A stretch of DNA of 64,000 bases from Perkinsus chesapeaki (lineage: Eukaryota > Perkinsozoa > Perkinsida > Perkinsidae): positions 1-64,000 of the forward strand of contig JAAPAO010000078.1 of the NCBI GenBank assembly GCA_013115145.1, in the 5' to 3' direction. The position numbers and the translations under genes are program-made. The notes under the pieces are model-generated. The model searched no databases, was not told where the DNA came from, and saw only the letters and a list, made by a program, of their open reading frames with translations. Positions 9,318 to 58,300 of this stretch are shown piece after piece; position 1 is the stretch's first letter; the number at the start of each line of letters is the position of its first letter.

Positions 9318-12300
9318 CTACACCTCTAGTTCGAGACCGTTCATCTGAAGGACCTTCTCATCGGTCATGTAGGAGACTTTGGCTTACTAATGTTGCTCGG
9401 ACCAGTTCTTGATTTTTCTTTCTAAAGGACTCGCTAGCAGTTCGCCACCGTGAGGCCTGGCTCTCTAGGTGCTAAGAAAGATGTCAACGGCAACCAGACA
9501 TGAAACAGGCCGTGTTACACAACTGGTGGTCATCGAAAACAACAACAACTCACTTCAATTTTTTCCTGCATTTTCTTCTTCAAATCTTCCTCTCTCGATT
9601 GCCACTCTTGCTTCAATCCTTCAAGCTGCTTCCGAAGTTTAGCGGCTTCTTTGCGACTCGCAAGCAACTGCATCAGCCACAGTAACAAAGAAAAAGGAAT
9701 TTCCTATATTCCAACTAAGATTGCAGTCACCTTTCAAAAAACTAAAATCTGAACTTGGTAAAGTCTGACAGCAGCTAGACTCTAGATGGTTAGAATAATA
9801 CCTGGCTTTCACCTAGGCGTCCCGGGTTCGATTCCCGGTAGCGGAACATCCATTCAACTCGACCAGCTCACCGTTGCTTCATTGTGATGGGCCGCTGCCA
9901 ATACTTCTCCTTCTTTGCGCTCTACTGCACTCCTATGATGTGTTACCTCCTTCTCCAGTTGCTCTACAAGTCTGCTGTTTTCTATTCTTAAAGCCTGAAC
10001 AACTGAAGGCAGCATCGCTCATTGGCCATCACCTCACTTCGATTTCCTTTCGTGTCACAAGGGACTCCTCTTCAGCTTTGGCACATCTTTTTATCAGCTG
10101 CTCGTTCTCTCTGTTGAGCTCGGCTGCTCGAGCTGTTAGTATCTCCTCCCTGGCAGTAGGAGGTGTAAACCGATCTCATGAAAGGACAGGTGCTACTCTG
10201 TCTTGAATGAGTTGTTCTGCAACCCGAGTTCATCCTTCAAAGCTCGGATTTGCTTGTCCAGGTCATCGTTCTCGGACACAAGTGCCAACCTCGACGTCTG
10301 GAGCTCCTCGGACTCCTTGCTCCTAAGGTCTCTCTCACGGTCAAGCTCTCGGTTAAGCAAACCATTGGCTTTGCGCAAAGAAACATTCTCCTCTTCAACA
10401 GTACACAGTCGAGCCTACAAAGTGTTTGATGGTGATAGGCTTTGTGAGCGGGGAGTGAAGCGGTAAGTGGGAGAGTAAGCCGTTTAATGCTCACTCTGAG
10501 GCTCGCTGCTGCTTCATCACTGGACTCTAACTTATGCTCCATATCACCACACCTATAAAAGATCTCAATGCTGGACGCCAGGCAGTAGGTCACTTCCGAC
10601 GAGAAGCTTCTCTCTCGGTTGCCAACGCTTCGGACATCTCTTTCTTAAGTTGAGCTACGTCTGCCTTCCTGGCCCTAACCTCACATTGGAGCTTCTCGCT
10701 CAGCACCTGTTCCTGTCAACCACGTGGTTCCGGGTTTTGTCACAGGATAAGCGTGCTTACCTGTAGGCAGGCTCTGTCCCGAGCGGTTTGCATCTCGACC
10801 AGTTCATCTCGAGCTTCCATGAGTTCACCCTTGCAGTCGTCCAATCGGAAGTGAGTATCCGCTCGCCGCTTCTCCAGGGATTTCTAAACTAGATCCCACT
10901 AGTGCATGCCACACATGTGCCCACCAAAGTTTTGTTAGCTGACTCGGCTTCAGCTCTGGCCACGTTGAGGTCCGCTGTCAGCTGAGCTATCCGCGACTTA
11001 GCGTCCTCGACTTGCTCCTCGAGCTGAATAAATGATACCAGGATTAAAGATCCATGTCAGTGGTGAACTGTTTGCAGAAGCTCGCAACTTACAGAGGTCA
11101 TACGCCTCACGGTGCTAGATTCTAGAGACCGCATCCTTTCGGTAGCATTGCGTGCTCGGGAGTCGGCCTCTTGAAGGGCCTGTGGAGTTAGACATCTGCT
11201 CGCTCTGTTCGTGATTCGCTGCAACCTTGTTTTTGTGGTGTAGTTCCTCTCGCAGCTTTTGCAATGAGTCCTCGAGGTTCTTCCGCTGTAGCCTGGAAAG
11301 TCGCCGCAGTCACAGCTGTGCATAGCCTTGATCCATACCGGTCACCCTGAGCATCCCGTTCAACTTGAAATCGGCGCTCTTCGCTGGTCTGGGCTTCAGC
11401 GGACAGTTCTTCAAGACGGGTCTCTGCTATTGCTCGGCGTTCTTCAGATCGAGCCAACTGGCGTGCGAACTGCAGGAGAGAATTGTAAGGCACAGTTGAC
11501 CAGTCTTAGTTCCATCAACACACGGGACGTCAACCGTGTTTTAGTCGCACACTACTGAGAGTGAACTGCTCAGGTGACATGTGCTGGAGTTTAATTAAGC
11601 ATGAGACCTTTCCATTGAAAGCCTCATCTCATCAGCAACGGTTAAACGGTATCCAACAAGGGAACGGCGACATGGATAGCCTGGGGTCTACTCGGAGCTG
11701 AGCCACTGATGTTGGGTTACTAGACTACCCGTAAAGTAGTCACCACCGACCGCAAGAAGCAACAGCGAGAAGGAAGGTATAAGCATTGCGTGAGTCTGAA
11801 GCGACGCATCAGACTTTGCATCGAGTGAACCGGTCGAAAGGTTCTTCGCTGAACCAGCTCTATAAGAAATACATCTTGATCAAGAGAGCATCGGGCAGTG
11901 CCCGACGGGCACCGATGTTCTTGCTCTCTTCCAGGTCCGTGCACTGTGCACCACATCCACAACGTGGCGCACGAGCTGCGCACCATACTAAGAGAAGGCC
12001 ACTCGAAGCTTGTAAGACCTTGCTACAGGTTCACTGCAGCGCCTCGATCGTAGGTTTTGTTCACTACTAAACGGCTGGGCCGAAGTCTTCAGGCCGCCGT
12101 GTATCCGTGAACATAGAAGTGGCTTGCAGTGGAGTGCTTCTAAGTCACTGGGGTACATCGTTCTCCCCAGAAGTCGTAGTATGTACGTTGGCAGCTGGTA
12201 CGGTTCTAGCAGCGATGACGATAATCCAATGATCCATCAAACCGGAAATACAGACTTCTGTCGACAAGATTAAGTGGGCAATGATAACATGAATAACAGG

Positions 12301-15069: not shown

Positions 15070-17015
<1,946 letters not shown>

Positions 17016-17735: not shown

Positions 17736-17739
17736 TGAA

Positions 17740-18599: not shown

Positions 18600-20701
18600 T
18601 ATCTCCCTGCACTTTTTGGCCAGGGCTGTGAGGACGTTAGCGTAGTCATGTATACAGAACTTGGTAACAGCCTTCACACAACATTCAGCCAGCTCTTCCC
18701 ACAGGCTCGGATCGCCGTATGTCGTATTAGCCAGCGCCCACATAGAGTTAGACAAGCAGTGGGGCGCCAATTCAGGAGCGTCGTCTCGGAGCTTCTTGGC
18801 GCATCCTTCGACCTGATGATAATCAACACGAACAATGACCGCTGCGCCACAAAATTGATGGCCTTACCAAGTCTGAGTAGTCGTTAACTTGGCCAAGTCT
18901 GACGAGACTCCAGAGGCACAGTGAGATGCTCTGAGCCGACAAAGTGCTCAAATTATCACGCAGTATATCACATATCTCTTCAATCAATGGCATAACCTAA
19001 CCAACGGTGATGTAATCCCACAATCCGCTGTCCCCCTTACCGAATTCGAACGAGTATGCCCGAGCTTCACTAGACCGTGAAGAAGCATGGCGGCATCTTG
19101 AGCACCCAAACCGGTAGTTGAATTTATCAGGTTCGCGCGATCTGCTAGGGCGTCGATGGCACAGCAATCGCAGACTCCCATACGAGCATACGCACTGAAT
19201 ATCGTGGCTGAAGTGGAAAGATGTTACCTTGTGCATGCGTACAGAAAGATACTATCTTACATATATCCGCTGTGCTGAATCGGAAGCTTTTGGATTTAAC
19301 ATAAGCGGCGGTGGCATCAACCAATTCTGGATCTTTAGCTGCAAGATCAACTCCCATGAACGCCAGAGCCCAAAGACATGTGCCTGAGCCAGGGATCGAA
19401 CCTCTGCGGGAAAGGACCACACGGGTTATTACTTAGCTGAGCGGGGGAGTACTTGTCCAGATGTTCGTCCATTTGCCTGGCGATCGCATCACAACACAGC
19501 GGGTCATGATATCCGAGCTTGCATAGGCCCCACGCCGCCGACGTGAGATCCTCACACGAGAATCTGATAGAAAAACCGTAAAATAGCTTCCGGCCTACAA
19601 CAGCGGACTCACTTCGATGCGAACTGGGCAACGTAAGCTTGGCAGGATTGTATGAGATCATCATGCTTTATCCCCACGCGGCCGAATGACTTTAAAATGG
19701 TCGCCACATCTTGGGGATTCAATCTTCCCGCCTGAAAGATGCCATACCGCAACTTCCTCAAACCAACCTGAAATGCAGCATAACCCACCTGTGCGTGCAT
19801 AAGTGCAACATATCCACATCTTTCAAAGACCATCTTAACTCTAGCTTGATCAGTAATATGTGGCATCAATCGACTTAACCCCCAAAGTGTCATAGATAGA
19901 TCTTGAGGGTTATACTTATCAGCTTGAGACAGTATCTAACAATAATACCACAACCTTTCCGTCACAACAAAAAACTGCTCAAGCAAATTTCCAATAACAA
20001 ATGATGCCACCGATTAAAGCCGTAGACTGAATGAACCCCTCAACGCGATGAGCTAACTGTGGCCAAATATTACCAGTACCGAGGACGGGCCACGAACCGG
20101 AGGCGGTAGCAGCTCATGAATACTTCTAATGCCGACGCCAAAGGCGTTTATATTACTCTATCACAGACTGCAGTGAAGTCTATTCCTTCATACCAATCGA
20201 TTTTAGCAAACGCCCAAATCGACCTTGAAATGTCTTGGGCGACATACTCGGATAGGTGGGCACAAAGATACCTATCATCAAGCTAACATTTCGAATGCAC
20301 TCATCAACCTAAGATACTACCCAACAACCGATCTTAAGAAGTTCGGCTCCTTAAGACCAACCTTTACATGTGCCCATAACATCTGTACAGCCACCCGAGG
20401 AGTACCTAAAAATACCGCTGCCGAAGATCGAACCCGCGACCCCCTACTATTTGCCAGCCTCGGTGTCGCATAGGTACACATATCCCTAACCGGTCCCTCA
20501 TAACCCAGCTTGCCGCATTGTTCACATATCCCCGTCAAAATCGCCAAGTCCAGGCCAGCCTCACTTTTAGCCTGACATCTCATCATCATCATCCACCACC
20601 ACCACCATCCGTAGTACATGGTCCGTGGAAAACACTCTATTGAGCTCATCTGTGATCCATTCTAGTGCATTACTGTTACTCGCTTTATTGCCACTGGTCA
20701 T
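18600..20701 (-). CDS. Helical-repeat protein of the FASTK / heptatricopeptide type, probably mitochondrial RNA-binding
   Basis: Starts MTSGNKASNS (ATG 20699-20701) and joins across about eight introns. Repeated units of about 37-40 residues carry the signature of these repeats: VAVQMLWAHVKVGLKEPNFL, FSCEDLTSAAWGLCKLGY, YSPAQLSTCLWALAFMGVDL, GAQDAAMLLHGLVKLGH, CLSNSMWALANTTYGD and FCIHDYANVLTALAKK. The pattern (Q/A)D-hhh-h-WALAKLG is that of FASTK-like or heptatricopeptide repeat proteins, which act on mitochondrial or plastid RNA in alveolates. No RAP domain was found, and the C-terminal end is unresolved. Two introns (19384-19432, 20406-20447) contain tRNA 3' pieces, one (20283-20320) a family E core and one (19564-19612) a family B core. 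Confidence 0.65.
19384..19432 (-). repeat. 49-nt intron with a tRNA 3' fragment, sense
   Basis: Minus-strand intron between ...YSPAQL and TCLWALAF. Contains GAGGTTCGATCCCTGGCTCAG (B box, T-arm 3' side). Phase 1 join restores the repeat sequence. Confidence 0.65.
19564..19612 (-). repeat. 49-nt intron ending in family B core
   Basis: GT-AG intron of the helical-repeat gene. It ends ATTTTACGGTTTTTCTATCAG, with the last 20 bases shared with the family B element at 48186-48224. Confidence 0.65.
20283..20320 (-). repeat. 38-nt intron with family E core
   Basis: Begins GTAGTATCTTAGGTTGATG. Removing it joins FLRSVVG to LMIGIFVPTYPS in frame. Confidence 0.65.
20406..20447 (-). repeat. 42-nt intron made of a tRNA 3' half, sense
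   Basis: Starts GTAGGGGGTCGCGGGTTCG (B box) and ends GCGGTATTTTTAG. Removing it joins YATPRLAN to STPRVAVQ in frame. Almost the whole intron is T-arm, acceptor strand and T run. Confidence 0.8.
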
Positions 20702-22341: not shown

Positions 22342-25300
22342 TCAGATTTCATCAACCCTCGGCAGAAAGCTCAGCCGAAGCCCTCTTACCAGATTCCCAA
22401 AAAAACCCTTCGACTGATGATGATGACGCTGTTGCTGTTGTTGATGTGATCCAGATGGCGAGGCATATACCCCCGGCGGAGGTGCTGGAGGGGTCCCTCC
22501 TCCCCTCTGCTGCGACATCCTTTCCATCTGCCCAGGTCGGCCCGCCCCCCTCTGGTGGTGGTTGCCCGGTGCACTATTCCCTGTATCGTCGGAATCGCCT
22601 CCTCGACTGTTGCGGTGGAACGGCAAAGAAAAAGTCATTGGTTTTGATAATACAGATGGTGAAAGTGTACAGTAACTTGATCAGAAATTGGTCTGCACTA
22701 AACTCCAACTCGCCAGGTAACCGATGACAGAAATGCTTTCAAGGAACTGGGCTGGTCACAAATCAAAAATATCATTTTTGCTCCTCCGAATTCTCGCTCT
22801 TCGAGTTCACCGCTTTCGGACTTTCTATACCGTCATCTCCAACAAGATCGATAGAATCATTCATATTGCTCCCTTCCACAGTATCTACCCCACAGCTAGA
22901 GGTGTCAGAAAAGCATCTAGTGCTACTACTACCTGCCCCGAAGGGATCCCCTTTCCAGGCATCACCGGCCTCCCCCGGCACTTCATCTGTCGGCCATCCC
23001 TCGGGCGTTGATGAACCAGCCACCCATTTGGTATCCGCGACTGTGGGGGACGTGACCCAGCCAGAGCTCTCAGGCGGCCACCCTGCTACAACCGGTTCTC
23101 CGCTTTTTCCATCAGAATCTCCCCCTCCCCCTCCAGGCCAGACCGCATTTACTGGTGACTCCGCCCAATCACTCGTCACCGGTCCCGGCCACTCAGGTGT
23201 AGGAGATCTCCCTCTTGGTGATGCATCGTGGTGCGAGCCAGCTTGAAAGAACTCAGGAGAGTCGAAGGAGTCATCGCCGAGCATCGCTCCCGTAGTAGTA
23301 GTTGAGGGGGTCGTAGTGGCAGATGCCGTCGATGCCACAACTGGTGGAAGAGAGGTCACTGGCACCCCTGGACCACGACCTACCAACAACAACGTATCTT
23401 CCATATCCGCAATTCCCATCGGTTATATAACTTGCCGTCACTACAGTCATTTTAATATATATATAATGAATGTTACTTTTGCCATCTGCGGCAAATCCAG
23501 GAGGGCTGGAAAATGCAGTCTATTACATCAGAATCAATATCTAATCACACTTATTATAATTACACTTATTGCAATATACACAATTATATGTCACATCACC
23601 ACTGGCATGAACCCTTTACCATCCGAAATGGCTCTAACACCATCGATTCCCGCCATTTCCCCTCGTCCGAACCTCCCCATTTCTATTGCCTATTACCCAT
23701 ATCCATCGACGTGGCCTCCTCGGGCACAATCCTCGGTACTGTTATCGATCCCCCCAGATCGAGCTTCATTTCACGACATAGTCGCCACCGAGACAAGTAG
23801 GCCTCAGCCGCCGACGATTCTAGATGAAGGAACTCAGGCGATGTGGATGACTGAAAAATCGCCACGAACCTCGGCGGAGCGAAGGCCGAAAAATATTCAC
23901 CTGCGTCACTAGTAGGAGTATTTCTGCCACCTGAGGTCGACATCTGACAGAAAAAAGTATTATCTAATCATAACAACAGCGGGATGAATGGAACCCACGA
24001 CCTCTGGCTTACAAGGACACACGCTCTACCGCTCCACCATTACTACCCCATTATTATTCCTTCATCTCCCGCTAAACACTTTTCAATCATCTCCTTCTCC
24101 CTCTTAATTGCCCCAATTATATCATCATCATCCCCCAATTCATGCATCGCTCCGCTAAGCTCTAATACCGAATTTGCCAACAATGAGCAAGCCGAATGCC
24201 TCCGCAGCATCGCCTCCATCGCAACCGTCAAAAACTCGACACCGACCAACTTATCCGGCCGATCGCACTCGCTCGAAAATATCCGATTCGAGCACGCCGC
24301 CATTGCTGTCATCACAAGACATACTACCTGTAAACCACCATATTAATTTAGTGGCGCGTGACTTTTCCCTTACCTCAGTTAGCAGTTCTACATCTTCCTC
24401 CTCCTCCCCTTTTTCATCTCCGCCCACAATGTCTGTCATTTCCTTCATCCGGCTGCCAACCGCACCCGCGATGACTCCACCAGGAGATGTCTCTGTCACC
24501 TCTGCCACAGGGAGGCCGATGCCACTAGGGGTAGATGCCTGCAGCATTATGATGCCAGAGCATAATATGGAGGATGACCAGGAGACATGCGACACAATTC
24601 TAGTAGCGGGAAGGCCACACATTTCTACTTCAAACATGACTCCCGGAAAATCCATTACTCACACAAATAAAAGCATTAGGACACTCAGACCGCAGTCCTA
24701 AAAGCTTTCTTAACCACTATGGAAGAAACGGAAAGATTCCCCGCGCAGAAAATGGAAGAAGACCACCACCGCCAAAGATACTTACCAATCGACAGCAGCC
24801 ATCGTCCTCCCCTTGGCTCTCCTCCTCCTCATCATCATCACTGCTCTCCTCAAGAGCATCATCTTCGCAAAATTTCAAAAAGAATAATAAACTTGTTACG
24901 ACATTCGCAGCCCCTCCCTTCACAGGGGTATCTTTCGGCAGCGTCCCCGACACTATTCGACCTATTAACCTATCAATCTCATCAAGGAGGCCATTCGCCA
25001 ACTCTGGCACATACACTTGGTGCACATCCTCCGACGGGGAGCGATCTGATAATACCGACAACACTGTTAAGGATTGCTGTATCGATTAAATCAATAATCA
25101 AATTTGATTTGGTATTCACTGAAGTTCTATCCATTCACAACATCTTATAATATCGTCCTCATCTCCACCTCGGATTCCCCCCATACTCCAAAACCGAGGC
25201 AAATGGCACGGCTACGGTGAGTTACCAGCGAACTTCAAGTACAACCACAGATGGGCTCCAGGTGTTTATGAGAAGACCGCGCGCCCCAAAATCTCTCCAT

Positions 25301-34146: not shown

Positions 34147-34279
34147 TCTACTTGCTTATTTGCTCAATGACTGCCAAGACTATTTTGTCCTGGGGGCTAT
34201 ATGAGGATAGCCAATGCGATACCTGTAGAAACCATACTCTGGTAGTGTTCATAAGATTTGACGACTTGTTACCTCTTTA

Positions 34280-36960: not shown

Positions 36961-36969
36961 ACTGTCCCA

Positions 36970-38818: not shown

Positions 38819-39025
38819 TTGCCTTTACCCTGTTCCACAAAGCTAACCATATTTATAGTGAACTGTAAAAATTATCTATTAAAGGGGCCCCTTCGAATAT
38901 CTTTTATCCTTGTGTTGTTCGTAATACTGCACGCCCGCAGCTTATCCCAAATTGAGAATCCCAATGGGCTCTACGAATGTCAACTGCGCTCGCTGGTTGT
39001 TGGTTTGGATATATGCCGAGTGTGA
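38819..39025 (+). pseudogene. Truncated secreted-protein start fused out of frame to family 3 copy 3
   Basis: 68 codons with a strong hydrophobic signal SFILVLFVILHARSLS followed by ENPNGLYECQLRS, the P-x-G-x-Y opening typical of the secreted families. The frame ends after 68 codons while overlapping the next ORF (38952-39353), which has the family 3 body but a poor signal peptide of its own. It may be a remnant of another family member, or the real first exon of copy 3 with a frameshift or intron. Confidence 0.45.
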
Positions 39026-39353
39026 GTGTTTAGCCATTACCACGGTTCCACATGGTATGTACTGTAAGACGGTTAGGCCAGTGTATAGTGTTAACCTTAC
39101 TTTCCACGGCAGCAGCTTTGATATAGAAGCGAGCTACTGGGAGCACAGAGGGTCGGCTACAGGTATGCCTTATACCATGCCTAGGCCGGAAGTCGTGAAG
39201 ATCCCCATCGGGAATGAGGACCTTCAAAAGCTGTATTATGCCTTAGACCCGCCAATAGTACCATTTCAACTAGAGTATGCGGAGTACATAAAGGATAGAT
39301 TGAAGTTCTATACCAGCGCAGGTAACCCCGTTTTGACGAAGTACAATTGCTGA
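38952..39353 (+). CDS. Secreted protein, family 3, copy 3
   Basis: 133-codon ORF. The family 3 body is complete: VPHGMYCKTV, SVNLTFHGSSFDIEASY, RGSATGMPYTMPRPEVVKIP, GNEDLQKLYYALDPP, EYIKDRLKFYTSAG, terminal NC. The first 30 codons (MRIPMGSTNVNCARWLLVWIY) are a weak signal, unlike the other three copies. A good signal lies in another frame just upstream (38819-39025). So the 5' end may be chimeric or broken. Function unknown. Confidence 0.65.
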   Translation: MRIPMGSTNVNCARWLLVWIYAECECLAITTVPHGMYCKTVRPVYSVNLTFHGSSFDIEASYWEHRGSATGMPYTMPRPEVVKIPIGNEDLQKLYYALDPPIVPFQLEYAEYIKDRLKFYTSAGNPVLTKYNC

Positions 39354-39359: not shown

Positions 39360-40920
39360 TGATGAAGATGCACTTTTATTCATCTTGTCTTAAATGTACT
39401 TAATTTATTGATGCCCTCGCTGGGAAAGCTTTGCAATTAACCTTGTTAGCAAAGCGCAATGATTTGCTACTAGCAAAGGTTCATACTCGCGAGTATAACC
39501 TTAGTAATTGTTACACCAAAGGTGTTTTGCGTTCCGCGCAGTGTATTATCTCGCGCCAACTCTTCCAGTTGAACTAACTCAACACGCTTGCTTCATATGT
39601 CTCAACAGTCACCAGCATTCAGTGACGGCTACCCACCAACCATCATTAATGGAAGACTCATTATGAGACTAGGGGTATTGCTGTCGCACCACGAAGAAGG
39701 TGTGTAAGGGCACGGGTTCCATCGAGAATCTTAGTTTGAGAAGGCGAGGAAAATTGGATAGTATCCAAGTAATCGTTGATCACTCGGATACTAGCTAATT
39801 GCTAGTAGCAATTACTAATCGATTACTAATCGAGTTCTTCACAATATATGTGACTGATCCATCCTACATAGTGTAAGGCTACATTAGCCTCCATGACGGA
39901 GGATTCAGTTGGGTACTCAAATGTTGGTACATTGTGCGCTAGATGACATGTCTTCCTCCCTCGCCAGTTAGTGGGGACTGCATACTATAAGCGAGATCTA
40001 CATACAATGTACATTGCAAATAGGTTGTCCGCAATTATGGCGCGCCACTGGGATTTACTCACCAGTCTTTTTGGAACCACTAGCAGTCATGATACATGTG
40101 CTGCCATGCTTGCTGCCCGTGGTAAAGCGTCCTCAATCACGGAAGGTCTGCCCACCGAGAAGTCGGCCCTGCAGCACTGGGCGGTTACGGGTCGAGGTGG
40201 TAGACAGCCGACTCGCCACGAGAAACTCTCTCTTGTCGCTTAACATGAGTGTTGTGAAAGTAAGTTTCAATTTAGGGCAGGGATTTCACGTGGAATACGC
40301 CCAGAATCTGTATGTCTCATAGAGCAGACTCTGCTCAGCAAAGAGTTATTCAGGAGAGGGCGCTTAAGGAGCTTCACTATGCTGGTGTCCCATCGTACCA
40401 TTCTTGCACCGCGTTCTCAGAGAGAACCATGAATGAAAAATATACTATATGGAGAGTGAGCATTTGTGTGGGTTTATAGTCCAACGCCGAAAAGGCCATG
40501 ATCGGACTATTCATTCTATGGTTGAGTCGGGTACGAGTACAAGAAGATAGATGTAGATGTGTATGCGGCTTGACACAACAGACCGTCCCCAATGGAGACT
40601 CTCCATAGTTCCATTCGCACGTGTATACAAAAGTTGAAAGCTTTAAAATAAAATCTTGAATATAATATTAAATTTATATAATTTTAAGCTATATATGCTC
40701 AGAAATGAAGCTTAGCAGGAATAAAGGGATCTCGTCACACGGTGTGAGTCAAACCTTCAGGATCGATTTGCTTATAGTGTCGCGTACCAGCAATTCTCGA
40801 GTCGATCGAGTGTTTGCCGTCGTCGACCAGCGGGCCCCGGTGACCGGGGAAAAGCAGTGTTTTTTCAGCTCTCAACTCGAGAATCTCAATTCGACAGTTG
40901 TCGGTTAACCTTGTCGGAAC
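39360..40920. other. Intergenic with short palindromes
   Basis: 39459-39475 TTTGCTA-C-TAGCAAA, 39478-39500 GGTT-x-ATACTCGCGAGTAT-x-AACC, and 40835-40849 CCCCGGT-G-ACCGGGG (80 bp before the copy 4 start). ORFs 39971-40243 and 40014-40322 overlap in different frames and lack features. Confidence 0.5.
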
Positions 40921-40928
40921 TCACTCCA

Positions 40929-41327
40929 ATGCTGTTCGTTGTCAACTCAATTGGCTTCCTGCTCATCGCTATGTTCTGTGGGAGCTGTTCGGAATGCGTT
41001 ACATCTCCATGGAAACCAACGGGGTCGTATTGCAAGAAGGTGCTCTTGGTGTACAAAGTCAACGTAACTTTCGGTGACAAGACCTTTGATATTAAAGCGT
41101 CTTATCTGTTGAGGAAAGGCTCTGCTACCAACCTTCCTTATACTATGCCAAGTCCGAAGCTGGTGGAGATGCCAATCGACAACGAAGTCTTCATTAATCT
41201 TTTCAGGACCCTAAATCCACCCTTTCCGATAGATGATTTGAATTATCTTGAGTATGATCATGAGAGGGAATTTTTAGCAGTCTATACGGGCAAGGGTGCC
41301 ATCAACTTGACGCGTGCGGATTGCTAA
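40929..41327 (+). CDS. Secreted protein, family 3, copy 4
   Basis: 132 codons from the internal ATG at 40929, chosen instead of the upstream ATG at 40857. This start lines up with copy 2 (MLFVVNSIGFLLIAMFCG against MVCLLNFICFLLVVTLYG), and the added 24 codons have no counterpart. Body: PWKPTGSYCKKVLLVYKVN, VTFGDKTFDIKASYLLRKGS, NLPYTMPSPKLVEMPIDNE, LNYLEYDHEREFL, terminal DC. Function unknown; secreted by inference. Confidence 0.8.
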   Translation: MLFVVNSIGFLLIAMFCGSCSECVTSPWKPTGSYCKKVLLVYKVNVTFGDKTFDIKASYLLRKGSATNLPYTMPSPKLVEMPIDNEVFINLFRTLNPPFPIDDLNYLEYDHEREFLAVYTGKGAINLTRADC

Positions 41328-46458: not shown

Positions 46459-48175
46459 ATGCCAGAAGTAGAATCAAAAAAGAGATCTTTAGATTCCGAC
46501 AAGGTTAAGTCGAGCACACCCGAAGTTATCTTTGGTGATTCCAAAATCGAAGTTGCCGGTAAAATATCTATCTCACATTAATGCACAGTCCCCATCAGGT
46601 TTATCGGACCCCACAGAGGTCCCTCTTGCCCGGACGTTCGACGAGTCTGGTCTGAGAAAGTCTCTTAAGGAGTATCTTAGCTCCAAGTTTTCCACTCCTT
46701 CCGCCATCCAAGCTGCCTGCTGGCCCCTCTTGCTTTCTGGTCTCGATGTCGTCGGTGTCGCTGAGACCGGCAGCGGCAAGACCCTCGGTTTCGCATTGCC
46801 TTTCATGTCGAAGGCTATGAATAAAGGAAATGACGGTATGATGATGGTGTTATCTCCCACTAGAGAGCTGGCGAGGCAAATCCACGAGGTTATCGTTGAC
46901 GTTGACAAGAAGAAGCAAAAGTTGCCTTCAATTTGCCTGTACGGCGGCACTCCTAAGTGGGAGCAGCAGAAACAGTTGAAGGCTGATAAGCCTCGAATAG
47001 TGATTGGCACCCCCGGAAGGGTCTTAGATCTCCTCCAGGACGGCTCATTGGACTTCTCTAAGGTTAACTATGCAGTTTTGGACGAAGCTGATCGAATGCT
47101 CGACATGGGGTTCCTACCGAGTGTCACGCAGATCTTCGGATATCTTCCATCGGCTGATAAGAGACAATCTCTTATGTTCTCAGCTACGTGGAATAAGGAG
47201 GTAATAAGGTAATTTCGTGGCGAGTGAGGATTGGTCACAGGTACGAAGATTATCTAGAAAGTTGATGAAGCGTGAGCGCATTACTGTTACTGTTATGGGC
47301 AGCAATGAGACCAAAAGCAACCAGGATGAGTTGACCGCCAATACTCGTATCACCCAGATGATCGATGTGGTCCACGATAGGAAGCCTAAGATGGACCGTC
47401 TATGGCATCATCTTGGTAACCTATGCCCTAATAAGGGAGTGTGGAAGGTAATATAAAGGGGATCGGAAGAGGAGGACTCAGCAATCGCCGGGATGTTGGA
47501 AATCTGTCACAAAGTCTATTTTTATACGAAGAGTGTTGGCTATCAGGTTATTGTGTTCGCACTGTATAAGAAGGAGGCAGCCCATCTCGAGCGATGCCTC
47601 AGGGACTACTATGATGTAGTGGGTCTTCATGGCGACATGACACAGTCCGCTCGGGAGGCCTCTATTAAGCGGTTTACCGAGGGGCAAAATCTTATATTAG
47701 TAGCTACTGATGTAGCAGCTAGAGGCTTGGATGTTAAGGACGTCACTGGTGTTATTAACTACACTTTCCCTTTGGTTATTGAAGATTACGTTCATAGGTG
47801 AGAGAGCGACGCAGGTTCGAATCCCAGGGAGGGCATTTTTCAGGATTGGCCGTACTGGACGTGCAGGGCGGACGGGCAAGGCTGTTACCATCTTGAATGC
47901 TGATGAGGAGAAGCAGTTCGCCTTCGATCTTAAGGGACTTCTTGAGCGATGTGGCCAGGAGGTAACTTCGGTAGCGGTTGATGGGGAGTACTTGGTATGG
48001 CCAGGTACCTGAGGCTTTGAGTAAGTTGGCAAACCAGACGGGTGGGTTCAAGGCGAGCAAGAAGAAGGTTCATCCCATTTATGGGGCATTCTTCAAGGAT
48101 GAAGAGGAGATGGCAAAGTTAGAGGCGAAGAAGACTCATATTACCTTCTCGGATGATGATGAAGATGACGACTAG
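46459..48175 (+). CDS. DEAD-box RNA helicase, Dbp3-like
   Basis: Six exons, five introns (46559-46598, 47201-47240, 47448-47546, 47798-47843, 47962-48004), all in phase. Motifs in order: FSTPSAIQAACWP (Q motif), AETGSGKT (I), PTRELARQI (Ia), GG, TPGRVLDLL (Ib), VLDEADRMLDMGF (II, DEAD), MFSATW (III, SAT), FALYKKEAAHLERCL (IV), GLHGDMTQSAREASIKRF, VATDVAARGLDVKDV (V), YVHRIGRTGRAGRTGKAV (VI). YTFPLVIEDYVHR and the tail NQTGGFKASKKKVHPIYG followed by an acidic end suggest the Dbp3 group, which acts in nucleolar large-subunit rRNA processing. Start MPEVESKKRSLD follows the divergent gene by about 400 bp. Confidence 0.9.
47201..47240 (+). repeat. 40-nt intron with family C core, sense
   Basis: GTAATAAGGTAATTTCGTGG then CGAGTGAGGATTGGTCACAG. 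Contains TAATTTCGTGGCGAGTGA, 17 of 18 bases of the MITE terminal repeat. Joins ATWNKE to VRRLSRKLMKRE. Confidence 0.8.
47798..47843 (+). repeat. 46-nt intron made of a tRNA 3' half, sense
   Basis: GTGAGAGAGCGACGCAGG, then TTCGAATCCCAGGGAGGGC (B box and acceptor strand) and ATTTTTCAG. It lies inside helicase motif VI (YVHR / IGRTGR), where the join is certain. Confidence 0.95.
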
Positions 48176-48623: not shown

Positions 48624-50491
48624 ATGCCTAGAGTCCAGGAGTATCGAATAGTCCTTCCAATGGAGGTCGAGCAATACCATGTTGCCCAGCTCTACATGGT
48701 CGCCAAGTCTAGCCTGGAAGATACTACTGGCGGGGCTGGAGTGGAAGTGGTTACAAACGAACCATATGATGATGGTAGTAGTGGTTTGGTGTAGTGGTTA
48801 GTATGTCAGCCTTTCTCAGGGGAGACCCAGGGTCAATTCACTCATAAGCGCATTTCTATCGCACCGTATTTGCCGTCTTGGGTAACATCATTGGTGAATC
48901 CTGATTGGCTGGTATTCGACGAGAAGAGTTGGAATGCCTTCCCTCGGTGCCGTACGGTCTACTCTTGTCCGATGCTTAGTGAGTTCTCGATGGAGATTGA
49001 TAGTATGCATATTGAAGGCAATTGTACAGATGATAACGCTCTTAAATTGGATGGTAACAAGCCGACAGTTTTTACGCTTTTTCTATCAGTTTTTGCCAGA
49101 TGCGGATCTTGCTAAGCGTAAAATTGACTTCATCGATATCGTAAACGATCACATATCCAGCAGGGATTATAATGAAGAAGAAGACCCGTCAAAATGGCAT
49201 AGCGAGAAGGTAGATGGAGACAAGCGTTCGGACGGGGAGATGCTGTTTGCAGCTCGACATGGGACCTTTGGAGTCTGACTGGATGCAGACGACTCAGCCG
49301 ATCATGACGTGTTACAAGGTACTAAGGGGAAGGGGGTTTGGTCACCTGGGGGCGGCGTCGGCGGGGGGGAGGTGTTATTACGTGCTGCTGCGATGTGATA
49401 ATACGATTTGATTGTCGATTCGGTGCTTAATAGTGCGGAGTGGAAGAAGCATGGAATAGTTACATTCGTTGCATGTGGACGTAGTTTATATCGAGTGTCA
49501 TTCATTTGAGTGGTTATCAGGTTATTCATGTTACCTGTAATCCTGGGTTTATGATGCAGAACAGAGTTGAAAGTTTTATAGTTAAAGCGACTAAGACAAC
49601 TCTATTCAAGTAGTAAGGGGATGGATACTTGATAAAGGGGCGAATCCTGCCCAGTCGAGAGGACATGACAATAATGCCAATGTAGAGTGTATTCAGCGAT
49701 GGTCTGAAGCTGAATAACTGAGTTGAGTAGTTCAATTACTAACCATTATTTCCTTCGCCACATTGAGGCCGATATCAATTGGTTTCGATTGCCGTCGTTG
49801 GAAGGCTGTCGTTGGCCTTGCCGTTTTTAACAGCGTACATCACCATTTCTCGAAATTTACGCATTCTCTGTTGGCGTGGAAAGCATTGGTATTAAAGGAC
49901 GTATGGGCTCCATAAGCAGCAGGAGTCGGATTGATTATTACCGTGGTTGGCTACCTTTACGCTACGTAGCTGGGGGGAGCAGGGTGGAATCTCGAACCTC
50001 GCAGGTATCATCGAAAATGTGTGTGCTGGGCGGATGAATGGGCCGATCTGACGATGGATGATATTCGATTGATGGAGGATAAAGTCCAGAAGAAGCTGCG
50101 GAAGTTCTGGAGGGACAAACGGATTGAGGAAGGCTTGGAAGTTGCCAGCGATTCTGACGCCAGCGAAGTGCAGGGGGAGCTGGAGGGCACCCCTACTGCG
50201 GATGAGGATGCCTCACCCGGCAGCGCAACTGGCCGCCGATCTCGAACTGCTAGTCGAGCATCAAGCAAAGATACCACCGGGTTGCTAACAGTTACGGCAT
50301 CACCGGTGGATCCGGCTAGGACTAGTGTGAGTGCGAGTGTTAATAATGACATAGCGGCGAGCGGTAGAGTTGGGGCTAGCCATAAGTGCAGCAGCATCAC
50401 TGGTGGAGGAAGCGGTGTGGAGGTTATGAGGGCTGGATCGCTGTTTAAATTGGGGGATGGTATTATAAATACCAGCTGGAATGAGAGGTAG
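48624..50491 (+). CDS. Phosphatidylinositol transfer protein (class I type) with Ser-rich tail
   Basis: Start MPRVQEYRIVLPMEVEQY matches the PITP N-terminus. Then KSSLEDTTGGAGVEVVTNEP, GQFTHKRISIAPYLPSW after a 36-nt intron, DEKSWNAFPRCRT (as in HEKAWNAYPYCRT), IDFIDIVNDHISSRDY with EEDPSKWHSE, MGPLESDWMQ, MMQNRVESFIVKA and CWADEWADLTMDDIRLMEDK. These give the lipid-binding STARD-like fold and its C-terminal G helix. The protein then continues with an acidic, Ser/Thr-rich tail (DSDASEVQGELEGT) to TAG 50489-50491. Introns include 48784-48819, 49054-49099, and two longer ones near 49320-49525 and 49608-50003. PITPs move PtdIns and PtdCho between membranes. All canonical blocks are present in order. 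Confidence 0.9.
48784..48819 (+). repeat. 36-nt intron made of a tRNA 5' half, sense
   Basis: GTTTGGTGTAGTGGTTAGTA then TGTCAGCCTTTCTCAG: an A box (TGGTGTAGTGGTTAG) plus the anticodon-stem 5' side, as in Glu/Asp/His tRNAs. Joins DDGSS to GETQGQFTHK in frame. Confidence 0.7.
49054..49099 (+). repeat. 46-nt intron with family B core
   Basis: Contains ACAGTTTTTACGCTTTTTC then TATCAGTTTTTGCCAG. Joins ALKLD to DADLAKRKIDF in frame. Confidence 0.7.
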
Positions 50492-50819: not shown

Positions 50820-53800
50820 TTATCGATCGAGAAAGGAAGGGGCGTAGTGCGTAAACAACTGCGAGGTGTTACTGCTTTTGGCATTCAAACTAGCACTGAT
50901 GTGTTGTGAAGTGGGGCCTTGAATGATGTATGTTTAGATACTTTGTGCTGTCGGGATCTGTCCTGAGCTATTATAGAGATTCGAGGGAAGTACGACCGAG
51001 GGAGAGTATACCGATGAAAGGGGCTGTAGTGCAGTGGTGTGGCTCACATAAGGGAAGAGAGCATGCCTTTATAGTCGTAATAACGTCACGCGCCATGAAA
51101 TTGTACGGTTATTCAGATGCCCAAGGACCATCGCAGACAGGTTGTTGTGTCTGGTGGAAGCGAGGGCGAGACGCGTCAGTGGATGCTTTGGTGTCAGGAG
51201 GCCGCAGATAGGGCTACGGCCTCAACGACACCTGGGCCAACCATGGAGGCATCTCCTAAGGTGGCTATGGTAGCTGAAGGAGAGCCAAAGGGGGGCGAGG
51301 GAAAGGTGAGTGGCGGTCTTTGGAGGGAAAAAGCAGTGTCTATCTTAGGTTGAAGCGCGCTCTTCGGGTGGTGGAGTAGTTCGCGAGAAGTCTGTTGATA
51401 AGGCTGGGCCGTCGGTGTCGTCTTCGTCAGGGGGCCTTCTGCCAGATGCCTGTACGCGGTATTTGCCTAAAGACCCTTTAAGAGGAATGGAGAGCCTTCT
51501 GAGGTTTGCTAGATGTGGATATCAAAGGAATGATATGTGTATGGTGTAAGTTGCCGGGGGTGGGGATCGAACTCGGGTGGGATGCCTCTGAGCAGGTCAA
51601 CTGATCGAGGGTTGAGGATTTGGCGGCAAATGGACCCTGTTGATGAGGAGGCCGGTTTGACGGTTTTTCTATCAAAAGTGTGGTCTGAGGCTACCAGAGT
51701 GGATTTCTATTCCGTCCCTTTGTCTATCGCCTTTGCAATAACTACCCTCTCCGTTTTCGTCATCCTCACACTCGGTGCTTTACTGACACCTCTAGCTGCA
51801 TTCATCCTCGTAGTGTGGTCCAAATGCCTGCTGGAAGTGTTCCCTATTGCCGAGGCCGTCAGGGAGGGTACTTCCAGTGGTGTTGTGATCGGTGAGGTTG
51901 TTGTGCCCACCACCGACAGCAGCATGGTCGAAGCCGCTCTTTTGGATGTATCCGAGTGGCATCGTTGGAGTCCGGCGCTGAAGTCTGCCGCTGCCTACAG
52001 GCTGTCTACTACTGGTCTGGGTCTTGTTAAATACGGCGGAGCGGAGCTTACTGAGCGAATTATTCGTCCTAGAGAGGAGGGGCCACCTAGCGTAGGTCCA
52101 TGCCAGGAACAGCAAGCTTGCCTGCCATCACTAATAGTGTTGCATTACGATAGCAAGGCAAATGAGAAGTACTTTTGCTGGGCGGTGTTCCCGGGCCCTA
52201 AGTCAGTGTCGGTGCTGATGCTGAGCGCTGGTGGCCCCGGGAGAGCCATAAGGGGCCTGAGGTTTGTGCGAGAGTATCTTAGCTCGCTGCAAGTTGCCCC
52301 TGTAGTGTGGCCGAGACCCTTGCCATCACTACCGGATATGTTTATGCCACGAGGGAGCCAACATGTTCATGCGAGAAGGAGAGGGTCTGGTGGATGGGTG
52401 GAGCTACCGGTGCCTTATGGTGTTAAAGGCCTCGACTCGGCATTAAAGAGGGCATTGTTGCACAACTCAGAGGAGGCTATTGTTGGCGGTAGGGTAATGG
52501 CTGATGAAGATGACCGTGGTGGAGCGGACGTGATGCCGACTCTTATGGGTGGGAGAGGAGGCGGAGCGAAGTTTTTTTATGGTTTTTGGTTTCAGCGTTG
52601 TCGCATCTATTCATCCAATCGAGTGCGTATATGCCAAGAGCGAGCACGGCTATTGTTAATAACGATAGTTGCCGAGCGGTAGGTTTGAACCGGGGTCTTT
52701 TGGATAGCAGTTGGGCGCTTCCCCCGCTGGGCTATAAATGTGTATTTCAGTTACAACTGGTGGGAGCGTGCATAGTGGCCAGTCTACAACGTCTTCTTTG
52801 TGCCCTTGAAAGCAGTGATGCCTTCCTAACCACATCTGCAGCAGCTGCCCGGACCCCTGGTTACCGAGCCATCATAACTCCTGGAGACACATGCCAATGC
52901 AAGACGATCCCTCGAGCTGGTCGAGGCCATGGAGCTGATATTTGCTGGGAGGCAGTGGCGCCCGATTGTGCTCATTATTTAGTGACAGAGGAAGAGGGCT
53001 GCGGGAGATGGACGCAACGAGGCACGATAAAGTGAGAAAAATACCCTCGGTGGGATTCGAACCCGAGTCGTGCTACTGCAGGTTTGGTGTATCATTATTG
53101 CCTCCTACATTGAAGTACAGAACTACTGGGATAGCTCTCAACCTCACCGGAAAGCACTATATCGACTTCCTCAGTAGTGAAGTCAAAAATGCAGCGGAGC
53201 GGAGCTCTAAGAGAACTGCAAATAAAGGCATTACCGCCTTCGTGACAGAGCTACCACGGCTGGTAAAAATGCCTGTTGCCGGAATCGAACTCGAGACCTT
53301 CTTCCTCTCGTAGGTCTGTCGCCCATTGAGTGGTTCCTCCAAGCATTGCTTGTTACGTTGGGAGGGCAAAGTATCTATCAACATTCCCGGAGCCAACGGT
53401 GGCATTTGCGAGCTCTCCATTGTGGATCCATCCAGCGGTAAGTTATCTCGCTGTTCTTGTTCAACCCGGATGAGGGAGGATTCAGGCCGAGTGGCTGGAG
53501 AAGTCCGAAACGGTCGTGGTGGCCTGCATAGTGTTGGAGAGGGCAATATATTCGACCGTGTGTGCTTCGATGGCGAGCCACTTTGGGTTAGCGGCCTGTG
53601 CCCCGAGGATTTAGCGGCGTCTTCCGAGCATGCCGCTGAAGCCTTCCCTCCAACGTCCCCAGTTGTCGAGATAAAGGTAGGGTGCCGGGATCGAACTTGG
53701 GACCTTTCAATCGCATACTTCAGGTTGAATCTAGCAAGCGTCTCTTGCCGACTGATTGTCATACTCATCGATTGATTGGTCGCCGGCGCCGGGTCCAGTC

Positions 53801-53822
53801 GACCAAACCATTACAGGAATAA
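50820..53822 (+). CDS. PH-domain membrane protein with START-like middle region
   Basis: The PH domain is split by introns: GRGVVRKQLRGVTAFG, YFVLSGSVLSYYRDSREVRP, GREHAFIV and, after a 40-nt intron, RRQVVVSGGSEGETRQWMLW, the C-terminal helix with its Trp. A linker follows, then hydrophobic IAFAITTLSVFVILTLGALL and AAFILVVWSKCLLEVF (one or two membrane segments). DVSEWHRWSPALKSAAAY resembles the start of START-like lipid-binding domains. The rest (through NGGICELSIVDPSSG and PVVEIK, ending TKPLQE-stop at 53820-53822) is unrecognised. A PH-START lipid-sensing protein of the EDR2 kind is one idea. Five successive introns contain antisense tRNA pieces. The 5' end is not fixed. Confidence 0.55.
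51077..51116 (+). repeat. 40-nt intron with family C core, antisense
   Basis: GTAATAACGTCACGCGCCAT then GAAATTGTACGGTTATTCAG. The complement of AACGTCACGCGCCATGAAAT is the MITE end with one change. Joins EHAFIV to MPKDHRRQVVV, restoring the PH domain. Confidence 0.8.
51546..51595 (-). repeat. 50-nt intron with tRNA 3' fragment, antisense
   Basis: Plus strand GTAAGTTGCCGGGGGTGGG then GATCGAACTCGGGTGGG. The reverse strand has GAGTTCGATCCCC (B box). Joins NDMCMV to STDRGLRIWRQ. Confidence 0.75.
52679..52710 (-). repeat. 32-nt intron with B-box piece, antisense
   Basis: GTAGGTTTGAACCGGGGTC then TTTTGGATAGCAG. The reverse strand has CCGGTTCAAACC. Joins IVAE to RWALPPLGY. Shortest resolved intron of this set. 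Confidence 0.6.
53032..53081 (-). repeat. 50-nt intron with tRNA 3' half, antisense
   Basis: GTGAGAAAAATACCCTCGG then TGGGATTCGAACCCGAGTCG. Read in reverse it is B box, acceptor strand and GGGTATTTTTC, the mirror of introns 28902-28944 and 47798-47843. Confidence 0.8.
53263..53313 (-). repeat. 51-nt intron with tRNA 3' half, antisense
   Basis: GTAAAAATGCCTGTTGCCGG then AATCGAACTCGAGACC. The reverse strand ends GGCATTTTTAC. Joins VTELPRL to VCRPLSGSS. Confidence 0.8.
53677..53723 (-). repeat. 47-nt intron with tRNA 3' fragment, antisense
   Basis: GTAGGGTGCCGGGATCGAAC then TTGGGACC. Reverse strand B box AAGTTCGATCCC. Joins SPVVEIK to VESSKRLL. Confidence 0.75.
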
Positions 53823-53940
53823 TTGCCTCTATCATCCACTGCCTTATTGTAGCATTTCTACCACTTTTTTCAACTCCTTGGCATTTGAGTTAACCAAGTG
53901 GGAGGGGGTCGGGCCCGCTGCAGTCCCTAATTCGCTCACT

Positions 53941-54665
53941 ATGCTCCTCACCGGCTCACTCCTCTTTTTTTGCTCGGTGTACGGAGCACCCTTGTGGGAC
54001 TCTGAGACTTGTCTGGAGGAATGCCCCGAGCTGGCTCAATCCGTGGCACTGCTGGAAGCTTTGGTTCTATCTCCTAAACTAGCCGCGGCCGCTCTATCGG
54101 GGAGCTATCAAGCCGGGTGGGAGGAGTATTTGACGCTTCGATCAGATTGATTGCCGTGTGTAGGTATAAGGCGGTCCGCGAGGACAAGGTGTACTCATGT
54201 GTGGCGGAAAAGCTATGTGGAACGTGTTTAGAGGTGAGCAGGGATCGAACTTGGGACCTTTGGATGAGGATTAATAAGTTTGTTGCTCTACCGTTCGGCC
54301 AGGAATCCACGTGCACGATTGGGCGATGCATTGTCGAGAATGTCGCATGTCGGGCCTTAACCGATTTCACCTCGGATCTAGTTAAGATATGTTACTGCTC
54401 GATTGGTGAGCCACGACCCTACCCTTCCCTCTCAACCATCACTTCAGGTTACAACATCGCTGTCTTAAATGGGATGGTTGACCCCCAGTGGTCATCAACT
54501 GACCCTCCCTTCTGCGAAGGTGGTGTGAATGCTCCTCAAGGAACAGCAGAGACTGTTCAGGAATCATGCAGAGGTCGGTCACCTCGTTGGTTTAAGTATC
54601 CAGTATTTTGCATTGTTGGACAGCGCCGCAGTGTTGGCTATATGCGGCCGTTGCCACTCGGCTGA
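53941..54665 (+). CDS. Putative secreted cysteine-rich protein with introns
   Basis: Starts MLLTGSLLFFCSVYGAPLW, a good signal peptide, then SETCLEECPELAQSVALLEA. A short intron at about 54118 joins GSYQA to GLIAVCRYKAVREDK with YSCVAEKLCGTCLE. A 69-nt intron (54234-54302) leads to ESTCTIGRCIVENVACRA. The many cysteines and signal peptide suggest a secreted protein. Beyond about 54390 the frame is uncertain; an alternative frame (54529-54762, LFRNHAEVGHLVGLSIQYF) also looks coding. Unlike the secreted genes at 5-41 kb, this one has introns. Unrecognised. Confidence 0.45.
54234..54302 (-). repeat. 69-nt intron carrying a whole tRNA-like body, antisense
   Basis: In reverse: TGGCCGAACGGTAGAGCAAC (A box), a decayed anticodon arm, and AAGTTCGATCCCTGCTCAC (B box and end). 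The 5' end of the tRNA-like body lies right at the 3' splice site. Joins TCLE to ESTCTIG in frame. Confidence 0.75.
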
Positions 54666-55386
54666 GAGGGAAAGGAAGTTCCAGAGGAATAATTTGCCTA
54701 ATTTTTTCGCGAAATTTGTAGATACTTGTCAGAATTCCGGTAGACTTTCGGATAGGATATGAATCGCAGCCACTCGATTGGTAAATATTAGGCCACGGTG
54801 ACGGAAGGCGGAGAAGAATCCAAAGGATACAATCGGGATACAGTCCGTTCAGTTGTTGCATGTGTATTGTTGATGCGCATTACGTCGCCAACCTAAGGCT
54901 GTGGTTGGGGTCAGAGGCCCCATTTATTTTCCTGTTGTCATGTCACAACAGCCAGTTCGACTCGATAACCTTATGTAGCGACACACCTATACTGTCGACT
55001 ATCTCCAATACAACAGCTGCTCATAATGTTAATTTCGAACCGGCTGCGGCGGCGGTGGTCCTATGGCTACGCCATGACTTATATGGTTGAATTTTAAACC
55101 GTAAATAATTCCATGTGTGTGAAACATATCCGTAGAGACAACAGCTTCTCGCTCGCTTCCCCTTCAGATTTCAGTATTTCCGACTTCATCGGTGGTTCAC
55201 CGCAGACAGAGGAGCCAACCGAAAATGCCAAGGGGAGTTCAGCGGAGCGAAGCAGCAGATTACGCATATACCTGATATCACTCTTCAGCTTCCTGTGGGG
55301 CGTGTTCATGCTTTTATAGCTTTGATGTTGTTACTTACTATCTCGAGTTCTGCGGGGCACCGCGGTATGGTATTAGCCGTTTGTAA
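54666..55386. other. Unresolved, possible exons
   Basis: Plus frames at 55113-55319 (SLASPSDFSISDFIGGS) look partly coding, with a GCGGAGCGAAGC family F motif at 55245, but no joins could be confirmed. Confidence 0.3.
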
Positions 55387-58300
55387 ATGTCATTCAACGG
55401 CAGCCCGATTCGGCAACAACCGGAGGAGGCAGCCCTCCCCGTCATACCACAGCAAGGGGAAATACACCACCCCATAGTGCTCCAGCAGCAGCAGGGGACA
55501 GATGCCGCACCACAAAGCCCAAATGAATTGGTCATCGGTTCAGTGGCAAGCAATAGTCCTTCTGGAAGCCCACTGCCACCTGCCCCGCCTCAACACCCAC
55601 AGATTCCAACCCCAGCCACTAGTAGCAGGCCGGCCAGTGCTGGTACCAGTACGATGAGCACACAAGGGGGCAGCAGCGGTATAAGGCTGCAAGTGGAGGA
55701 AATGAAGCAGTACCTCGATCAGGCTAAATGCATGTAAGGTTGGATGAATAAAATATTATATAGTTGGAAGTAAATTCTTCGGAAAGTGGTACCGGCAACC
55801 GCGCTTGGGCGGAGTTGTAGAAATAGGAGATAACTTCGGAAGAGGCGCTCTATTATAATTATGAGGCTTCTGGGCTTCAACCCACGCGAGTTGCGTTCTT
55901 TGTGTGTTTTTCGAAACAAGTTCTTTTTCAGGTTCGCAGATTCTCCCGATAAATACGAGCAGTTGCTAGAGGTCATTGCCGGTAGCAATGACAACTGCTC
56001 CCTTATAATTACTACCTTGTAGGTATGTCTAAAAGAACCCGTCCGCATCAGCCGGCCCCACCAAGCACTGCAGCCTCGACTCCCTCTGGTACAGTGACCG
56101 GCATCGGGGCACTAGTGGGGCAACTTCAACAACTCAATCACAGTCCTGACCAACAACAGCAACAACCCGCGGCAGCAGGCGTCCAGATGATACAGGCTCT
56201 GCAGGGTCTGATGCAGCATCAATCACAACAACAGCAGCAACAAGCAGTGGTGCCACAGCCAACACCTATGGATATTGCCAGACAGGAGGATGATATATCG
56301 GAACTGTGGGGCTTGCTCTATTTCACTACCGCCAATTTCACTTGTGTGTTTTAGGGACAACTTGGATGTTGGTGGTCTTATCGACAGGCTACTGGAGATC
56401 TTTGAGGGCCAAGGCGCGGCTAAATCCATGGTGAGGACGGGAGGGTATAGAAAGATCGACTTAGTCGATTCATCGCACGAGCTGCATGGGGCGTAGTTGA
56501 TCTCCCTCCTCGAGAAACATTAAGAAGTGGAGATATAATAGAAACCCTTGTTCGCGCTCAACATTTAATATTGCAGTGTGTGAGCGCCATGCCGCCGGTT
56601 TGGTTAATCTACTAGGGATTACTTTAATATTAGTTATCAATCTCCATTGTTCTATCGCTCACTGATAATATTGTTAGTATCTAGCACGGCACCTGTCCAG
56701 GTCATGGTATAGTCCCGGATGTTTTGAGATTCATTATCATCCTTGCAATCAGGTCCTATGCTTCCTACAACTCTGTCGGCTATCAAACCATCCAGCAGCC
56801 AGTTGGCTATTCGAAGAAGCTGAGAGACTTCGAGAAGCAGAAGTTAAAAGGCAAAAAGAGACCGAGGAGAAAGAAGCGGTAAATTGATTTAAAATGCCGC
56901 GTGCCGGGTTCGAACCCACGCCATTTTAGTTTGCAGCAGTCAGTGCAGCTGCTCGCGCTACTGCTGACGTAATAGGGCCTCCTGGACCGCCAATCTGTCT
57001 GGACCGCGCGGCCACTATGGCGTTTTTGACAGCAGGTGAGCGTCACTCTGCCAATCGATTGATGTCACTCATGTCGTTTCAGTTCTTCCAACTCTTCCGA
57101 GCAACGTCTATGCGGTAGGCATTGACTCGGGTTCGATCCTCGGCAGAGGTGTTTCTTTTATCAGGTTCTTAGCTCTGGTGTCTACCAAGGCCTTGAAGCT
57201 GGTATAGTTAATAGCAACTTCGATGAGGGTATGAGGAGGGTCCTGCAGAACTATGCCATGGCTACCTCAGTGTAAGACACATATCGCCATTCTCAAAAGT
57301 ACGGGCATTTGAAAATAAAATGCCGTACCTGGGATTCGAACCCGAGATCTCCGTCCCTGTACAAAGGGTGTGGCAAGAATGATGGGTTCTGATGGTAGGT
57401 ACCTGGCTCACCGTAAATCGATGATAAGGGTTCATGGGACTAACGAGTCGGCGTTCCCAAGTAGATCCACTGGAACCAGACGAGCTCCGGCTGCAAAGGG
57501 AAAGAGGAAACGAGCAACAACAGGAAGAGGAGCAGCAGCAGCCAAACAAGCTTCTACTAGCTCTGAGGAGGTATGTGAGAGATAACGGCTGATAATTATA
57601 CCAAATTTCCGTCGAATCTACGGGCATATCCCTGTCCTAGCTGACATTAGTTATACCACAAGTGTTGCCATGATTTCCTGAAGAGCGCGCGTTGTCCTAG
57701 AGTGTGACGTGGGAAGATTTCCTGAGGGAGATTCGAGGCAGATTTCCGAGAGCAATGTCAACACCCTAAAGAGAGTGAAGGGTAGTTATTGCGAAAATAT
57801 TTCAGAACGGTCAAGGTTCGAGCGAGGAGGCCAGCGTTGAGGCTACAACACCTGAATCGGATGAGAGTACTGAGCTATCAAGGCAACCGGTTCGGCAAGC
57901 TAGGAAGAAAAGGGTAACTTTTGACGGAAAAAACGTAAAAACTGTCTCGTTAAGGCGAAGGCGTCTTCATCCTCCGAAGTATCTGATGACGATGCGGCGG
58001 TGCCAAAGAGACGGTCAACTCGCCGGACTCGTGCAGCTGTGAAGGTAAGTAAGGTATTTCTGGACGCTCCTATGCAGCATTTAGACCGAGAGAGGAGCAT
58101 CATCATCTGAAGCTGAGGAGCCAGTTGCTAAGCGTGGTCGAACAAACAGGAGAAAAGGCAAATCAGCTGGCAGCGCGGGGGACAGCTCGGTGGTGAGCGC
58201 TACACAAAGACTAGGGGAGGAACCGACAATGGAAGGCCGAGAACGAGTTGCGCTTGAGATGCTGGTGGAGATTCTACCCCCTACACTTGCACATGAGATG

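Follow-up and report, generated by a model that had tools for sequence, protein, structure and literature searches.

Transfer RNA (tRNA)-derived short interspersed elements (SINEs) and tRNA retropseudogenes carry the B box of RNA polymerase III (Pol III) and a T-run, and occur as 5′-truncated copies in both orientations; extra-TFIIIC (ETC) sites are B boxes without a tRNA gene and have, to our knowledge, not been described as introns. Introners, or introner-like elements, are a known class of repeated introns (see also PMC4457414). Their families, as far as the accessible portion of PMC9860276 describes them, have median lengths of 30–654 nt, with target-site duplications (49/130) and terminal inverted repeats (72/177); some carry the marks of DNA transposons, while the origin of others is unassigned. 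Neither tRNA nor SINE occurs as a word in the main text of that paper, tRNA goes unmentioned in the available part of PMC3443670, and we found no description of tRNA-derived introns among the titles and abstract openings of the literature searched, which covered few subscription journals or preprints and some sources in part. The introner elements of Amoebophrya, a dinozoan relative, have both inverted and direct repeats and use non-canonical splice sites (PMC7789003, from the available excerpt). Here we analyse a family of tRNA-like elements in Perkinsus chesapeaki, recognised in a eukaryotic stretch of 64 kb with GT-AG introns (the window: positions 1 to 64,000 of contig JAAPAO010000078.1) and followed through the whole assembly (GCA_013115145.1; 35.4 Mb, 884 contigs).

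The unit is about 41 nt long; it begins with the 3′ half of an anticodon loop, continues through the T-loop with its B box and, after the discriminator base, ends in a T-run of Pol III type. In 77 aligned sites, the conserved span runs from about A37–A38 (tRNA numbering) to the fourth T past the discriminator base, with little conserved outside it. The family is in excess over controls, sits at strong splice signals, with each end near one, in two orientations, conserves its B-box core to an extreme degree and has mispaired stems; these sequence facts are firm. The B box, the T-run, the 5′-truncated copies and the two orientations are shared with tRNA-derived SINEs and retropseudogenes, but the present elements have no target-site duplication, body or A-rich tail, rarely have an A box, and are sited in minute introns. 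Like ETC sites, they have an intact B box without a tRNA gene. With introners they share a single sequence family found in many introns of unrelated genes, and many introner families also lack target-site duplications and terminal inverted repeats (PMC9860276, available portion); the differences are that the present unit resembles a tRNA and contains a B box, and that its copies are strongly diverged. The Amoebophrya elements are likewise repeated introns, whereas ours are GT-AG and tRNA-like (PMC7789003, available excerpt).

The pattern GGTTCGANTCC has 751 matches in the genome against 88 for its reversed form, and GGTTCGANTCC-N7-GGCATTTT, with up to two mismatches, has 707 (some of them true tRNA genes) against 3. 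A B box lying near the 3′ splice site, for which the preliminary description proposed a genome-wide survey, proved to be in clear excess: TTYAGG lies 10–25 bases 3′ of a B box in 115 cases and the scrambled acceptor TTYGAG in 15. The donor GTAAG lies 0–25 bases 5′ of a B box in 151 cases against 47 for the scrambled GAATG, with tRNA genes in both counts: 17 of the 47 are identical stretches of one repeated sequence, a tRNA-Arg(ACG) gene, and among the matches listed of the 151, 14 are one repeated sequence, probably a tRNA gene. Introns were predicted by a purpose-built gene finder combining a coding model, splice models and a length model, trained without knowledge of tRNA on the same genome, including the window and element introns; the results are those of its third version, and the second had given too few introns. 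A 35-column element profile (leave-one-out, cut-off 12) picked out 21 of 348 predicted introns and none of 1715 dinucleotide-shuffled introns, and the scores split cleanly, the 21 element introns reaching at least 13 and the remaining predicted introns at most 3.4. Loci fetched for holding an element supplied 82 of the 348 introns, which inflates this rate; in the window and loci L001–L020 alone (hand-picked and non-random, mostly contigs with tRNA matches), it is 8 of 266 introns. Copies of the strict pattern number 125 per Mb in the window (8 in 64 kb), 101 near other copies, 32 in L001–L020 and 20 in the genome. The elements cluster, with three to five element introns in one predicted gene or 3-kb stretch (gene 51117–54762; L064, L044, L049). 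B boxes with no or one mismatch occur in 26 of 348 introns against 8 of 1044 shuffles, and those with two mismatches in 21 of 348 against 68 of 1044. The short introns had been described as little else than either a T-arm with B box or an A-box half. The first kind stands; the second we reject as a class, as A-box pieces with up to two mismatches are at chance level (39/348 introns, 102/1044 shuffles) and introns consisting of the 5′ half show no excess.

The position of the elements was assessed by a score of splice signals only; its models were trained with 254 element-free introns and calibrated on 127 held-out ordinary introns (of which a fraction of 0.79 exceed 7). A score above 7 was reached by 43 of 76 element sites. 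Among random sites, 333 of 1540 did so (p 3e-13 for the comparison with element sites), and among true tRNA genes, 10 of 30 (p 3e-4). Rows for most tests had to contain an exact GGTTCRANNCC, 30 of the 76 were fetched by a match to a 26-base pattern (38 of the 707 match it exactly, and these are the first 30 by contig order), one row for a true tRNA was left out, and palindromic B boxes (56906; L009) were counted once per strand here and in the coding-potential test. We estimate that a share of 0.66–0.92 of the copies is intronic (five thresholds); the introns measure about 47 nt, and the copies lie in them in both orientations. A collection of 59 element introns (38 sense, 21 antisense; nine are from the preliminary description, some with unsupported borders) has median borders at −14.5/+32 around the B box in sense and −20/+28 in antisense, with variable 5′ ends, so that the element is almost the whole intron. 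Their median length is 48 nt compared with 46 for the 254 others; hence the element fills the intron rather than being added to an existing one. The AG|GT exon contexts of the two sets resemble each other. The result is many sequence-similar predicted introns in unrelated genes. TTCGA was considered as a branch point and rejected, as ordinary introns have no clear branch-point motif.

What has been conserved is the core of the B box. All three lower T-stem pairs are formed in only 7 of 74 elements but in 33 of 35 real tRNA genes; the mean number of such pairs is 1.36 against 1.46 in permuted elements, and no T-stem covariation was found among element sites. When sites were recruited by their flanks only (AAGGNC and GGCATTTT exact, T-loop free), the T-loop was kept in 27 of 28; with one mismatch this pattern gave 215 matches against 43 for the reversed control, and hence only the 28 exact matches were used. 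The core (G53, T54, T55, C56, A58, C61) is changed in 1 of 162 cells, compared with 12 of 54 for G52/C62 (p 2e-7). A flank profile with the T-loop columns omitted, trained on rows with an exact T-loop and applied locally, gave 63 of 73 top sites with at most two T-loop mismatches, the other 10 having at least four and none lying between. We conclude from a nearly invariant core beside mispaired stems that it is the B-box core that persists, rather than the tRNA fold; the cloverleaf and paired T-stem of a functional tRNA are absent from most copies. The T-loop is fairly uniform, with G57 in 72 of 77 sites. An upstream A box or D-arm is seen in 7 of 76 elements (control 1/76) but in 34 of 35 tRNA genes, and of the internal A and B boxes of a SINE it is thus the B box that is present. 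Such rarity of the D-arm is expected under 5′ truncation; selection on intron size could also produce it.

Outside the B box, elements have a median best identity to one another of 0.70 (0.63 permuted) and a median identity to tRNA genes of 0.57 (0.53 with columns permuted), the latter measured against 32 distinct tRNA-gene regions of some isotypes only. The copies thus resemble each other more than permuted ones do, but the tRNA genes at hand hardly more, which speaks for a separate family rather than for repeated capture from the tRNA genes now present. Pieces of tRNA genes, the wording of the preliminary description, is not borne out in the plain sense: the mispaired T-stem and flanks hardly closer to tRNA genes than permuted ones indicate that the elements are not plain tRNA-gene copies.

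The window itself had been said to hold at least 18 loci with tRNA parts, nearly all of them introns in unrelated genes. All 18 run from GT to AG on the gene's strand. Scoring the B box as GGTTCRANYCC inside each stretch, we found a T-loop/B box with up to two mismatches in 17 (none in nine, one in six, two in two), the sole exception being 48784–48819 with only an A-box-like piece. The gene finder gives the exact borders of eight, other overlapping introns at two and nothing at eight. With 27421–27514, whose borders are supported by the CHORD domain, nine introns have supported borders; they lie in six genes, one being the CHORD gene and the other five predicted, where the preliminary description had counted at least nine genes for all 18 loci. 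The nine called candidates below have borders without independent support. The two joins that had been taken as fixed by conserved motifs, helicase motif VI and CHORD, hold up, both being gapless. The preliminary observation is thus partly confirmed: the tRNA-like introns appear to be real and to lie in unrelated genes, with splicing predicted from the signals and from two protein domains.

9765–9871 (−): candidate intron of 107 nt, a degenerate, nearly whole tRNA antisense to the gene, presumably Glu-like; Rfam tRNA match of 29.9 bits at 9786–9839 (+), gathering score 29; T-stem intact, unlike most elements.
19384–19432 (−): intron of 49 nt, B box near the 3′ splice site; gene finder exact; the gene has a FAST_1 match of 32.7 bits (cut-off 27.4).
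20406–20447 (−): intron of 42 nt, sense element ending GGTATTTTTAG, B box with two mismatches; gene finder exact, low-scoring gene.
23944–24046 (−): candidate intron of 103 nt, D-arm-like part and degenerate T-arm; split into two by the gene finder.
27421–27514 (−): intron of 94 nt in a CHORD domain, with B box, end GGTGCATTTTAG and D-arm-like upstream part; not predicted by the gene finder, but the domain spans the join without a gap (Pfam E 2.4e-21; PDB 2yrt also gapless).
27989–28049 (−): candidate intron of 61 nt, sense element, B box without mismatch, profile 41.6; no border support from the gene finder.
28902–28944 (−): intron of 43 nt, sense element, in an MFS transporter gene (MFS_1); gene finder exact.
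47798–47843 (+): intron of 46 nt, sense element, in DEAD-box helicase motif VI; B box without mismatch at 47814–47824, then GGCATTTTTCAG; gene finder exact; the spliced join reads EDYVHRIGRTGRAG, motif VI, gapless there against DBP2.
48784–48819 (+): candidate intron, A-box-like stretch, no B box; the gene finder prefers 48775–48819; probably not a family member.
51546–51595 (+): intron of 50 nt, antisense element, one B-box mismatch; gene finder exact.
52679–52710 (+): candidate intron of 32 nt, weak antisense B box with one mismatch, profile 8.0.
53032–53081 (+): intron of 50 nt, antisense element (GTGAGAAAAATACC...), B box without mismatch; gene finder exact.
53263–53313 (+): intron of 51 nt, antisense element (GTAAAAATGCC...), one B-box mismatch; gene finder exact.
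53677–53723 (+): intron of 47 nt, antisense element, one B-box mismatch; gene finder exact.
54234–54302 (+): candidate intron of 69 nt, antisense element with D-arm-like part, one B-box mismatch.
56879–56929 (+): candidate intron of 51 nt, palindromic B box GGTTCGAACC, accompanied on one side by AAAATGCC; not predicted by the gene finder; frames open for 67 and 62 codons.
57115–57164 (+): candidate intron of 50 nt, sense element, one B-box mismatch; not predicted by the gene finder.
57272–57366 (+): candidate intron of 95 nt, antisense element, B box without mismatch, profile 39.3.

We suggest that spliceosomal introns of about 47 nt are the main site of a dispersed tRNA-like family and that these introns arose from Pol III-type, tRNA-derived sequence, a proposal to which we give an even chance. 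Pol III-transcribed, tRNA-derived (SINE-like) sequence, or 5′-truncated copies of it, would enter exons at AG|GT sites. The T-run of a sense copy would act as the pyrimidine tract before AG, and the complement of that run in an antisense copy would come after the GT donor. The stems would drift, the RNA having ceased to be a tRNA, and the B box would be kept because copies need it for transcription or because it is used in place. How the element introns were gained, and how they may function, we infer. If true, the proposal would add another route to the old question of the origin of new introns and tie splicing to Pol III signals. As the copies keep a readable motif, gain, decay and function are directly testable in related isolates.

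Introners are the nearest known kind, and several of their defining traits are found here; an introner-like family of tRNA/Pol III ancestry, much as the preliminary description had it, is plausible but unproved. Several observations weigh against it. No target-site duplication, expected of either a DNA-transposon introner or a SINE integrated by target-primed reverse transcription, was detected in the 59 introns (mean longest flank match 3.915, permuted 3.921). There is no empty site: 36 joined sites gave 70 matches, all to themselves, and no second allele or paralogue of these sites was found within the assembly. Near-identical copies are likewise absent, the maximum identity outside the B box being 0.83 among 74. 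An A box is rarely present, which makes transcription doubtful. The 3′ end, scored as A and three or more T in four, is intact in only 22 of 47 copies not selected for it. Coding potential separates element sites weakly (area under the curve 0.63; 0.74 on 30 loci), for which reason the splice-signal test was preferred.

The absence of target-site duplications, the two orientations, the variable 5′ ends and the few copies with a D-arm would also suit filler DNA, in which many fragments of tRNA genes or pre-tRNA were captured in double-strand-break repair and the intron-sized ones with usable splice sites were kept. The rarity of fully paired T-stems (7/74 against 33/35 in tRNA genes), the rather uniform T-loop (G57 in 72/77), the lack of any excess of 5′ halves and the absence of any marked similarity to the available tRNA genes (an incomplete set) all tell against it; we consider it rather unlikely. 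Selection might instead hold the B box in place whatever its first origin, for example as a putative TFIIIC site of the ETC type. An almost invariant core among variable neighbours, the use of either orientation and the lack of a half-decayed class of B boxes (two mismatches, 21/348 introns against 68/1044 shuffles) are consistent with such a role, but recent insertion from diverse B-box-bearing sources would look alike and a TFIIIC site alone leaves GGCATTTT unexplained. This account is, to our mind, unlikely. We are similarly doubtful of its union with our proposal, in which hundreds of introns of Pol II genes would be Pol III-type elements whose B box is selected in place, the family having created the introns and still serving as putative TFIIIC sites.

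Simpler accounts fare worse. The genome is rich in tRNA genes (62 of 63 scored candidates were reported), which would suit intact tRNA genes nested in introns; ARAGORN (default), however, reports none in the window and one in the 30 loci L041–L070, away from the element, and the D-arm is missing from most copies, so that we regard nesting as refuted. Chance or base composition, for which we found no support, is refuted by the shuffled introns (0/1715) and by the reversed pattern (3 against 707), and we regard its probability as negligible.

Other features of the window are recorded here. The long gene at 1–5383 (−) matches reverse transcriptase weakly (RVT_1, E 2.6e-4, which falls short of the cut-off) and sits in a GC-richer stretch (0.56–0.58) that ends near base 6000; it is perhaps a retroelement. 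Two related small proteins, at 5990–6502 (−) and 8140–8634 (+), have W-VSF, GCP and G-YEGE in common; the latter, tested against Pfam, gave no match. Four small-protein paralogues on the + strand (34262–34669, 36922–37368, 38925–39353, 40725–41327), perhaps secreted, share YCK..V...V..TF...FD..A.Y...GSA...PYTMP; 38925–39353, the one tested, has no Pfam match. Elsewhere in the genome, the 10-kb locus L011 holds a 4-kb stretch with six genes for tRNA-Arg, of which five are TCT, and a spliced-leader motif that we take to be dinozoan occurs at 26 places (20 exact and 6 with one mismatch), compared with 0 for the control.

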